Part shown: positions 33,133-51,801 of the stretch, piece after piece
Position numbering within the stretch: position 1 is the first letter of the stretch
Layout: every line of letters starts with the position of its first letter
Assembly (NCBI RefSeq): GCF_947493125.1
Contig: NZ_CANLQB010000004.1
Location: 248,001 to 312,000, forward strand
Source of the DNA: an uncultured Roseobacter sp.
GTDB taxonomy: Bacteria > Pseudomonadota > Alphaproteobacteria > Rhodobacterales > Rhodobacteraceae
Direction: 5' to 3'
Length of the DNA stretch: 64,000 nt
Made by a program: the position numbers and the translations under genes
Notes under the pieces: generated by a model
What the model was told of the DNA's origin: nothing
Databases searched by the model: none
What the model saw: only the letters and a program-made list of their open reading frames with translations

Positions 33133-33372
33133 ATGGCGTCGGACAGACAGAACCTTCAGGATGCGTTCCTGAACCATGTTCGCAAGACGAAAGTTCCTGT
33201 GACAATCTTCCTGATCAACGGTGTGAAGCTGCAAGGCGTGATCACCTGGTTCGACAATTTCTGTGTGCTTTTACGTCGGGATGGCCAGTCCCAGCTTGTC
33301 TACAAACACGCGATTTCGACCATCATGCCGAGCCAGCCGATCAGCCTGTATGAGGGCGAAGACGCTTCTTGA
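33133..33372 (+). CDS. hfq: RNA chaperone Hfq
   Basis: Hfq binds small RNAs and mRNAs as a hexameric ring. The 79-residue protein has the Sm1 region ([20 protein letters not shown]) and the Sm2 motif [10 protein letters not shown]. The ATG at 33133 starts [13 protein letters not shown], as relatives do; the in-frame ATG at 33043 would give an unrelated extension. It sits upstream of hflX, the widespread hfq-hflX order. Confidence 0.97.
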
Positions 33373-48859: not shown

Positions 48860-50677
48860 CTAAGACGGATCGTACCACCAGACCTGCGGCATATACTCCG
48901 GGCCGTCACCGTAGAGCGGCAGTGTCTCGGGAAACTTCATTTCCTTCACATGCGCGATGCGCCCGTTTGTATATTGCCAGAAGGGGATCACATAGCGCCC
49001 GGCGGTCAACACCCGATCCAGCGCACGTACAGCCGTGCTGAAATCTTCCTCGGTTGTCGCCGACAGCATCGCATCAATCATGCTGTCAACGGCAGGAGAG
49101 GCGACCCCCATCAGATTTCGAGACCCTTCCTGCGTCGCCGAACCCGACCCCCAATAAAACCTCTGCTCATTGCCGGGTGAGAGCGACACAGCGCGCCGGA
49201 AGGATGTCATATCGAAGTCGAACGCCGCCTCGCGCTCAGTGTACTGTGCGCTGTCCGTCGTCTCGATGCTTACATCCACACCGAGTCGCTCAAGCGCGCC
49301 GACATAAAGGTCCGCAATTGCGAGATCTTGCGCATTATTCTGTTCAAGCAGAATGGTGAACTGCAGCGCCTCTCCAGCAGCGTTTTGCATGACCCCGTCT
49401 TTGGGGGACCAGCCCGCCTCCTCAAGAAGCTTCATGGCCGCCCGAATGCCCCGGCGGTTGCGCAGCGAACCGTCGCTTACGGGCAGGTCGTAGCCGTCGA
49501 GCGCGCCGGGCGGCAGGCTGTCGGCATAGGGTGCAAGCAGAGCTGATACCCTTTCATCCGCTGGACCCGGCCGCATTGCGAGGCTTGAGTTGGAAAAATA
49601 CGAGGTGATGCGCGGCTGTGCCCCGCCTGTCAGCGTGTCGTTGATATATTCAAAATTGAATGCCTGGATCATTGCTTCCCGAACGCGCCAGTCGTCAAAG
49701 GGCGGCGTGCGGGTGTTCATGACAAACCCGGTCATCCCAGAGGGTTTTTGGTGCGGCAGTTCGGATTTCACCACATCGCCACGCGTGACTGCCGGAAAAT
49801 CGTATTGTGTTTCCCATTTCTCGGCGTTGAACTCTCTCACCGCCGAAATCTCGCCCGCTTTGAAGGCTTCGAAGAGGACAGACGTGTCACCGTAAAAATC
49901 GAGTTTCACCGCATCAAAATTGAAGGTCCCGCGCCGAAACGGAACCTCTGCGCCCCAGTAGTCCGGGTTTCGTGTCAGCTGCACGAAACGGCCCGCCTCG
50001 TAGTCTGACACCACATAAGGCCCCGTTCCCAGTGGAACGTCTGTAAGGCCCGCGTTGGCGAAGTCTTTGCCATCCCACTGTGCTTTGCTCAATATCGGGC
50101 GCATTCCGGCAAGCAATGCCAGTTCCCGGTTATCTGTGTTGAACTCAATTCGCAAAGAGCGCGGACCCGTCTGGGTGATCGTCTCAATCTGCTGCGCCAG
50201 GCCGAGATAACGCGGATGCCCTTCGCGGCCGAGGGTCTCATAACTGAAGATAACGTCTTCAACGGTAACGCGCGACCCATCGGAAAAGCGCGCTTCCTCG
50301 CGCAGAGTAAACTCAACCCATGATCGATCTTCGGGGACTTCCACCGATTCGGCCAGAAGGCCGTACAGCGTGAATGGTTCGTCCCATGATCGCCCCATCA
50401 GGCTCTCGTGGGTGAGAAACCGAAGCTGCCACGGAACAGTCCCCTTGCGAATGAATGGGTTGAGGCTGTCAAACCCGCCCGAATTGCCAAGCATGATACG
50501 ACCGCCCTTGGGGGCGTTCGGGTTCACATAGGGCAGCGACACAAAATCGGGTGGCAAGGCGGGACTGCCATACATAGATATCCCATGTGTCGGCTGCGCG
50601 ACGCCGCTGTGTGACCAAAGAATCGCTGCAAAAACCGCCAGGAACCGCAAAACCGGGCGGAAAAAAACAGTACCCAT
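48860..50677 (-). CDS. ABC transporter substrate-binding protein, family 5
   Basis: This 605-residue protein has a signal peptide (MGTVFFRPVLRFLAVFAAIL, cleaved after SGVAQ) and the family 5 fold; YejA/oligopeptide-like, judging from GGFDSLNPFIRKGTVPWQLR and the length. Family 5 proteins bind peptides, nickel or similar ligands and deliver them to an ABC permease. No permease or ATPase gene lies next to it, so it is an orphan or partners elsewhere. Its 5' end faces the sRNA candidate region. Confidence 0.92.
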   Translation of the reverse strand: MGTVFFRPVLRFLAVFAAILWSHSGVAQPTHGISMYGSPALPPDFVSLPYVNPNAPKGGRIMLGNSGGFDSLNPFIRKGTVPWQLRFLTHESLMGRSWDEPFTLYGLLAESVEVPEDRSWVEFTLREEARFSDGSRVTVEDVIFSYETLGREGHPRYLGLAQQIETITQTGPRSLRIEFNTDNRELALLAGMRPILSKAQWDGKDFANAGLTDVPLGTGPYVVSDYEAGRFVQLTRNPDYWGAEVPFRRGTFNFDAVKLDFYGDTSVLFEAFKAGEISAVREFNAEKWETQYDFPAVTRGDVVKSELPHQKPSGMTGFVMNTRTPPFDDWRVREAMIQAFNFEYINDTLTGGAQPRITSYFSNSSLAMRPGPADERVSALLAPYADSLPPGALDGYDLPVSDGSLRNRRGIRAAMKLLEEAGWSPKDGVMQNAAGEALQFTILLEQNNAQDLAIADLYVGALERLGVDVSIETTDSAQYTEREAAFDFDMTSFRRAVSLSPGNEQRFYWGSGSATQEGSRNLMGVASPAVDSMIDAMLSATTEEDFSTAVRALDRVLTAGRYVIPFWQYTNGRIAHVKEMKFPETLPLYGDGPEYMPQVWWYDPS

Positions 50678-50756
50678 TTTGGAGACAATCTCCTGCTGCC
50701 CTTGTTTTCTTGGTCGCCAGACTAGTGAGGTATTTACGTCTTATCAAACTTTTAGC

Positions 50757-50785
50757 TTGGCCTACGGCGCGAGATTGCTTATAAC
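50757..50785 (+). promoter_or_regulatory. promoter of the small RNA candidate
   Basis: The -35 box TTGGCC (50757-50762) is four of six consensus, the -10 box TATAAC (50780-50785) is five of six, and the spacer is exactly 17 bases. Initiation would fall near 50792. Confidence 0.55.
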
Positions 50786-50791
50786 CAAGTT

Positions 50792-50868
50792 ACTGCTCGA
50801 TAGGTTTCTTGCCTGTATGAAACCTGCCTCAATAACTTAACGCCTGCCTCGTGCAGGCGTTTTTTTTT
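50792..50868 (+). ncRNA. candidate small RNA or attenuated leader
   Basis: About 77 nucleotides lie between the promoter and a strong intrinsic terminator. The first hairpin pairs AGGTTTC (50802-50808) with GAAACCT (50819-50825) over a 10-base loop. A linker AATAACTTAA leads to the terminator hairpin (50841-50859) with nine T. The octamer CCTGCCTC occurs twice, at 50823-50830 and 50843-50850, the second in the terminator's 5' arm. A 7-codon frame MKPASIT ends with TAA at 50838-50840, just before the hairpin, so a leader-peptide attenuator for bdhA is an alternative. I match it to no known RNA family. Confidence 0.5.
50841..50868 (+). terminator. strong intrinsic terminator
   Basis: CGCCTGC (50841-50847) pairs with GCAGGCG (50853-50859) across a CTCGT loop, followed by nine T (50860-50868). 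No gene on this strand lies within 1 kb upstream other than the convergent-side regulator, so it must end a short transcript. Confidence 0.85.
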
Positions 50869-51015
50869 GGCACACTTCTGTTTGCGAACTTCTACAGGTT
50901 TGGCGGGTGTTTTCCGGCCAATCGCAACTGTGAGGGCAAAACCCGTTTCCTTTGCATGCGCAGCAAGGCATGATGCATGCACTGCAGCAATTGGCATCTT
51001 TCGGAAGGGGCGTTC

Positions 51016-51801
51016 ATGGCATTCGAGATTTCACTGACGGGCAAAACAGCCGTTGTCACCGGATCGAATTCAGGCATCGGACTGGGCATCGCGTGGGAGT
51101 TGGCCCGGGCTGGCGCGAATGTCGTGCTGAACTCATTCACAGACTCAGAAGATGATCACGCCCTTGCACAACAGATTGCCGATGAGACAGGAACCAAAGC
51201 CCGTTACATTCAAGCGGACATGTCGAAGGGCGAGCAGTGCCGGCGCCTCATAGAAGAGGCGGGTGTGTGCGATATTCTGGTCAACAATGCCGGTATCCAG
51301 CATGTTGCTTCAATCCCTGAATTTCCCGCCGAGAAATGGGATGCGATCATCGCGATCAACCTGAGTTCTGCCTTTCATACCTCGGCGGCCGCCTTGCCGA
51401 TGATGCGCAAGGCAGGCTGGGGTCGTGTGATCAATATCGCGTCTGCGCACGGGCTGACCGCTTCGCCTTATAAATCGGCCTATATTGCCGCGAAACACGG
51501 GATTGTTGGCCTGACCAAGACAACAGCCTTGGAGACCGCAAAAGAACCGATTACGGCCAATGCTATCTGCCCCGGCTATGTGCTCACACCGATTGTCGAG
51601 AAACAGATCCCGGACACCATGAAGGAGTACGATATGAGCCGTGAAGAGGTCATCGAAAATGTGATGCTCACGCGACAACCGTCGAAAGAGTTCGCAACGG
51701 TTGAGCAGATGGGGGGGACAGCCACCTTCTTGTGCTCCAGCGCGGCGGCGCAGATCACCGGAACCACGATCAGTGTCGACGGCGGGTGGACAGCGCTCTA
51801 G
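51016..51801 (+). CDS. bdhA: 3-hydroxybutyrate dehydrogenase
   Basis: BdhA oxidises 3-hydroxybutyrate to acetoacetate, a step in polyhydroxybutyrate breakdown. The short-chain dehydrogenase signature TGSNSGIGLG is at residues 15-24, the NAG motif LVNNAGIQHV follows, and the catalytic Tyr and Lys are in SPYKSAYIAAKHG. The length is 261. ATG 51016 has GGAAGGGG upstream. The family also contains cyclohexanol-type enzymes, but HBDH is the best fit. A patatin-like gene follows after 41 bases, which fits a lipid or PHB context. Confidence 0.9.
   Translation: MAFEISLTGKTAVVTGSNSGIGLGIAWELARAGANVVLNSFTDSEDDHALAQQIADETGTKARYIQADMSKGEQCRRLIEEAGVCDILVNNAGIQHVASIPEFPAEKWDAIIAINLSSAFHTSAAALPMMRKAGWGRVINIASAHGLTASPYKSAYIAAKHGIVGLTKTTALETAKEPITANAICPGYVLTPIVEKQIPDTMKEYDMSREEVIENVMLTRQPSKEFATVEQMGGTATFLCSSAAAQITGTTISVDGGWTAL

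Follow-up and report, generated by a model that had tools for sequence, protein, structure and literature searches.

The gap between positions 50678 and 51015 of the window (the whole 64,000-nucleotide stretch of DNA analysed, from an uncultured Roseobacter sp.) raises the question of whether the promoter-like elements, hairpin and terminator on its + strand make up a gene for a small RNA, a leader controlling the downstream gene bdhA, or a short coding RNA, and, if the first, which small RNA it might be. The evidence strongly supports 50792-50866 on the + strand as a real, free-standing small regulatory RNA (sRNA) gene of about 75 letters. We consider it, with a probability of roughly 0.9, to be the orthologue of StsR (formerly RSs0827), a stand-alone, trans-acting sRNA that is induced by stress and in stationary phase, pairs with the leader of mraZ and helps RNase E to cut it.

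The sRNA gene, its promoter and its neighbours

The features of the locus and its surroundings are as follows.

48860-50677, - strand: divergent gene for an ABC transporter substrate-binding protein, resembling substrate-binding families, all below their cut-offs
50744-50753, + strand: upstream box TCAAACTTTT, with CAAACTTTT in 29/35 genomes
50756-50762, + strand: -35 element CTTGGCC with a TTG core (TTGGCC is 50757-50762); CTTG here in 33/35 genomes
50780-50785, + strand: -10 element TATAAC, 17 bases after TTGGCC; TATAA in 30/35 genomes
50792-50866, + strand: sRNA gene (probable StsR orthologue), from the start of the conserved block and as matched by covariance model R1
50792-50830, + strand: near-invariant 39-nt block, the same in 34/35 genomes
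50793-50799, + strand: nt 2-8 of the sRNA, antisense to CGAGCAG (site B of the mraZ leader)
50801-50826, + strand: first hairpin, stem 50801-50808 with 50819-50826, its pairs invariant
50810-50827, + strand: nt 19-36 of the sRNA, antisense to site A of the mraZ leader
50839-50868, + strand: intrinsic terminator with nine T
51016-51801, + strand: bdhA, 3-hydroxybutyrate dehydrogenase (NCBIfam TIGR01963, 360 bits, cut-off 307), the downstream neighbour, outside the sRNA

The original prediction, which placed the 5' end of a free-standing sRNA near 50792 and put its length at about 77 nt, agrees well with these features, in that conservation starts exactly at 50792 and the gene has its own conserved promoter and terminator; the parts from which the prediction was built are all present in the sequence, namely TTGGCC and TATAAC with 17 bases between them, the hairpin and linker, and the terminator stem with nine T. 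The R1 match, at 298792-298866 of contig C4, corresponds to window positions 50792-50866, and the length of 75 nt is counted to the seventh U, the U-tract extending to 50868. The region 50792-50869 has a predicted folding energy of -23.5 kcal/mol, compared with -13.0 +/- 2.5 for 200 shuffled sequences (z -4.25), none of which was as stable. An A/U-rich linker separates the first hairpin from the terminator, the stem of which (AACGCCTGC/GCAGGCGTT) pairs 50839-50847 with 50853-50861, the nine T occupying 50860-50868. The description of this terminator as the strongest in the window is correct with respect to its U-tract, but not with respect to stem length. Counting both strands, the window has only two runs of at least seven T, the second, at 50667 on the - strand, being preceded by a weak fold (-6.3 vs -14.6 kcal/mol for the sRNA terminator); longer stems, e.g. 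12 bp at 2360-2389 and 11 bp at 38842-38818, are without an unbroken T tract. A gene for Hfq, as had been reported, is encoded in the window (33133-33372, + strand, NCBIfam Hfq above its cut-off), about 17.7 kb from the sRNA gene.

The upstream box, when joined to CTTGG, has an exact match at the sRNA gene only, in each of six genomes searched; with two mismatches allowed, its frequency is about that of a reversed control. It is possible that the box is an UP element or the site of a dedicated regulator. A scan with the sigma-70 consensus did not report the sRNA promoter. PMC3441632 describes TTG as typical of RpoH promoters, with T-9 assigned to RpoHI and C-14 to RpoHII. If +1 is taken as 50793, the TTG is at -36 to -34 and C-37, T-13, A-12 and T-11 are present, T-9 and C-14 being absent. 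Thus, as judged from sequence, the TTG and spacing appear compatible with an RpoH promoter, the missing T-9 and C-14 counting against this assignment.

The arrangement of neighbouring genes bears on the possibility that the region controls bdhA, as a transcription attenuator or leader element. The substrate-binding protein gene lies upstream and divergent in 35/35 relatives, and in 107 of the 118 named contigs among the matches listed. A same-strand bdhA lies downstream in 30/35 relatives and in 89 of those 118 contigs, 105 of which have at least 600 nt downstream; an alternative CCTGC/GCAGG pairing can also be drawn in the window's own sequence, as attenuation would suggest. However, the sRNA is kept in 5/35 relatives with no downstream bdhA match, the alternative pairing is absent from the predicted fold, and in relatives the two arms of the terminator covary, whereas the first CCTGC never changes, so that the antiterminator pairing is not conserved. 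Control of bdhA by attenuation is consequently very improbable, and the sRNA is independent of bdhA. The related claim that the octamer CCTGCCTC is present twice is true of the window's sequence, but only 4/35 relatives have two copies.

It has likewise been noted that a 7-codon frame (MKPASIT) ends just before the terminator. This frame is open in the window, but its stop is at that codon in only 26/35 genomes, being earlier in two and not there in seven; furthermore, the block is invariant at the nucleotide level, including at third codon positions, and a Shine-Dalgarno sequence before the ATG is not evident by eye. That the transcript is a short coding RNA for this peptide is, therefore, extremely improbable.

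Conservation across the Rhodobacteraceae

The conservation of the promoter and sRNA in close relatives, the lack of which had been named as grounds for refutation, is extensive. BLAST with 50740-50880 gave a match in each of the other 34 family genomes (59 genomes being searched), with a worst E value of 4e-16; outside the family five genomes gave matches, all with E above 0.005, as was also the case for short second places. Of the 35 aligned genomes, which represent 17 genera, 34 share the same first 39 nt, the exception (L032) having A for T at nt 19. An exact 36-mer occurs in at least 118 contigs of named genomes, with Roseobacter, Ruegeria, Sulfitobacter, Paracoccus, Leisingera, Rhodovulum and Neomegalonema among the matches listed. 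Covariance model R1 matched 294/296 family genomes, all at least 90% complete and drawn evenly from the family; G521 and G540, drafts of 310 and 370 contigs, respectively, gave no R1 match, including with laxer filters. An order-wide draw gave R1 matches in 196/196 genomes, with every row labelled Rhodobacteraceae, and is therefore uninformative on other families; in a class-wide draw there were 5/385 matches, all five in the window's own or the same family, with 360 non-matching rows unlisted.

The check for covariation that had been proposed gave a clear result for the terminator, which varies yet stays paired: in a comparison of 21 sequences, both partners have changed in 5/9 of its pairs. 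The first hairpin is invariant, and so gives covariation evidence in neither direction. In G652, a degenerate second copy of the sRNA (L177 1501-1574, contig C15; E 1e-8) is located about 1.7 kb from the intact copy, and looks like a decaying duplicate.

CcsR-type sRNAs, which are stress-linked RNAs of the same bacterial group, carry CCUCCUCCC loops; the sRNA gene here is without CCUCCUCCC, in agreement with the earlier remark that its motif differs. In a search of Rfam 15, nothing in the window reached a gathering score. The best weak score was for BjrC1505 (RF02356, 26.9 of 50 bits); this family, mmgR/suhB (RF00519, 20.1 of 41 bits) and RyhB (RF00057, 23 of 55 bits) share a stem-loop and terminator outline with the sRNA, in each case below the gathering score.

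Probable relationship to StsR and predicted pairing with the mraZ leader

The assignment as StsR proceeds from a genome, G449, in which the same 39-nt block (C4:1443997-1444071) has a bdhA homologue downstream and a substrate-binding protein upstream. We take G449 to be Rhodobacter sphaeroides, since its PufL has the same sequence as the reaction-centre L subunit of R. sphaeroides. The presence of the same gene, with the same neighbours and leader complementarity, in what is presumably R. sphaeroides points to StsR, and we infer that StsR and this R. sphaeroides gene are one and the same; the single mismatch in site A of the R. sphaeroides leader counts against this reading. In R. sphaeroides, StsR is a 72-nt RNA, induced in stationary phase by RpoHI/RpoHII, that binds UpsM and the dcw leader, leading to RNase E cleavage (PMC8307010, PMC11354728); it also binds Hfq and targets rpoE mRNA (PMC8307010). 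Under its former name, RSs0827, it is described as induced by prolonged singlet oxygen and iron limitation (PMC3688512, PMC3413700). UpsM is 206 nt long, starts 268 nt upstream of mraZ and is cut to a 130-nt fragment, with its type of leader being confined to the Rhodobacteraceae (PMC5089854).

The sRNA resembles StsR in being short and stand-alone with an intrinsic terminator (75 nt predicted here, 72 nt published), in its complementarity to the mraZ/dcw leader and in the occurrence of the same gene at the same place in the R. sphaeroides genome; it differs in that the match to the target is perfect over 18 nt here, compared with one mismatch there. On the basis of the published description and of the R. 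sphaeroides counterpart, it is very probably StsR as it occurs in this genome. The sRNA gene itself is not UpsM, which is the partner RNA, derived from the leader upstream of mraZ; that leader, in which sites A and B are found, is another locus (G000 contig C1). Fragments of the sRNA core, sought as oligonucleotides in open papers, led to no Rhodobacter paper by title among the papers listed, and nothing on StsR across the Rhodobacteraceae or Rhodobacterales was found in the set of papers searched.

The target relationship emerged from the short second BLAST places, which lie on the strand opposite mraZ and so reveal nt 19-36 of the sRNA as antisense to GCAGGTTTCATACAGGCA (site A); in the window's own genome the match to the mraZ leader is Watson-Crick over all 18 nt. 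In order to avoid leaders chosen by BLAST, 31 family genomes were drawn evenly, of which 30 have mraZ and 29 have a testable leader. The longest Watson-Crick run (11-18 nt) exceeded that of all 50 dinucleotide shuffles in 26/29 leaders, the genome's own sRNA being used for 16 leaders and the canonical sRNA for 13; the remaining three, of G032, G033 and G428, had runs of 9, 11 and 10 nt, respectively, that were not above all shuffles. The same loci supplied 58 control stretches, in which no run was longer than 9 nt. An earlier, hand-picked set gave 27 of 35 leaders above all 60 shuffles, this set being biased both ways (seven leaders picked by BLAST match, 11 by weak model scores), so that the figure from the even draw is to be preferred. 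The leader of G419 is truncated by a contig end.

Site B is present in 24/29 leaders of the even sample, beginning 44-60 nt past the start of the longest run. In G019, G022 and G032 there is no site B, yet the 5' end of the sRNA is fixed, and site B may be kept for a hairpin of the leader itself; pairing at site B is for these reasons suggestive. Between the sites, nt 12-18 can pair with AGAGATC, a motif found in 14/35 hand-picked leaders. The complementarity overall suggests that the sRNA pairs with the mraZ leader by nt 19-36, and perhaps by nt 2-8 in most genomes.

Exchanges of sRNAs and leaders between genomes gave signs of co-variation in some cases. The G494 sRNA gives -32.5 with its own leader, compared with -29.7 and -26.9 in swaps with the window's genome, though it fits the G452 leader even better (-33.4). 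The 5' end of the G428 sRNA gives -14.4 with its own leader, compared with -11.3 and -9.9 in swaps; nt 19-42 of the same sRNA fit the G428 leader badly (-14.4 vs -27.7 with the leader of the window's genome). For G456 the swap test gave no sign of co-variation. Co-variation of sRNA and leader is thus suggestive in G494 and in the G428 5' end, cases that were picked after inspection and carry little weight.

The 39-nt block is fixed while target sites A and B drift, such that the sRNA is conserved beyond what the known target requires, which counts against the StsR assignment. It may be that the sRNA mainly serves another regulon, with the mraZ leader being one of several targets; the report that R. 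sphaeroides StsR also targets rpoE mRNA (PMC8307010) would be in accord with this. Against it, a search of seven genomes for long site-A-like matches, with at most two mismatches allowed, gave no further conserved site. On balance, a different principal regulon is unlikely. With regard to rpoE, the target is not confirmed, the calculation being of a single duplex, without shuffles, with the rpoE homologue of the window's own genome. A query close to R. sphaeroides RpoE gave matches of only 24-33% identity in G449, and rpoE, although known in R. sphaeroides, was not found there; a stretch examined for this target held a different sigma-factor-like ORF.

Proposed mechanism and implications

If the sRNA is StsR, it would be induced from its own promoter by stress and in stationary phase, and would pair with the long 5' leader of mraZ, the source of UpsM, through nt 19-36 at site A and perhaps nt 2-8 at site B. 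Pairing would help RNase E to cut the leader in the segment between the two sites; levels of UpsM and dcw mRNA would then fall, so slowing division when growth stops. The gene, its conservation, synteny and complementarity are established in the present analysis; control by RpoHI/RpoHII, binding to UpsM, RNase E cleavage and the effect on dcw are established in R. sphaeroides (PMC8307010, PMC11354728). Operation of the same mechanism in the window's organism, together with the two-site geometry, can be inferred by combining them.

Placing the published 206 to 130 nt conversion of UpsM on the R. sphaeroides leader puts the cut at nt 76/77, within CTTTCATC (76-83), i.e. past site A (54-71) and ahead of site B (107-113). 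When the R. sphaeroides leader is free, this segment is predicted to pair with GATGAGA. The cut segment has a mean unpaired probability of 0.13 both in the window's genome and in R. sphaeroides, and on cofolding with the sRNA this value reaches 0.57 in the former and 0.36 in the latter; with shuffled sRNAs (20 each), the mean was 0.34 and the maximum 0.71 in the former, and 0.16 and 0.32, respectively, in the latter. The energy gain on cofolding was -18.3 kcal/mol in the window's genome, beyond all 60 shuffles; the gain in R. sphaeroides (-11.3) was matched by 15/60 shuffled sRNAs, which counts against the proposal. Among six other genomes a rise was predicted in G030 (0.20 to 0.43) and G023 (0.00 to 0.22), with the other four being without clear opening. 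The models thus make it plausible that the published RNase E mechanism acts in the window's organism.

A more elaborate proposal is that StsR, near-universal and near-invariant in the Rhodobacteraceae, expressed with the aid of a dedicated box and co-evolving with its target, clamps the leader of the division operon through nt 19-36 and nt 2-8, and possibly through nt 12-18 as a third site, such that the RNase E site is looped out. This proposal is tentative, and somewhat less probable than its converse; if true, it would imply a family-wide RNA brake on division, switched on via a box found only at the StsR promoter.

The sRNA is of a known kind, absent from Rfam 15 and remarkably conserved, and its target relationship is seen across the family. 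StsR is described as damping the cell-division (dcw) genes in growth arrest (PMC8307010, PMC11354728), and the StsR work cited concerns one phototroph, R. sphaeroides. What is new here is the extent of the sRNA, the possible second pairing site and the stsR-specific upstream box. The data indicate that, in a bacterial family both large and abundant, the sRNA gene belongs to the core genome, and that it has long matched the leader of the division genes, making the control of division in growth arrest testable in many further genera.

The mraZ leader of the window's own genome (L036 2084-2101 and downstream) carries, after site B and ahead of mraZ, a hairpin that resembles a terminator; an UpsM-like RNA is therefore likely to be made in this organism.
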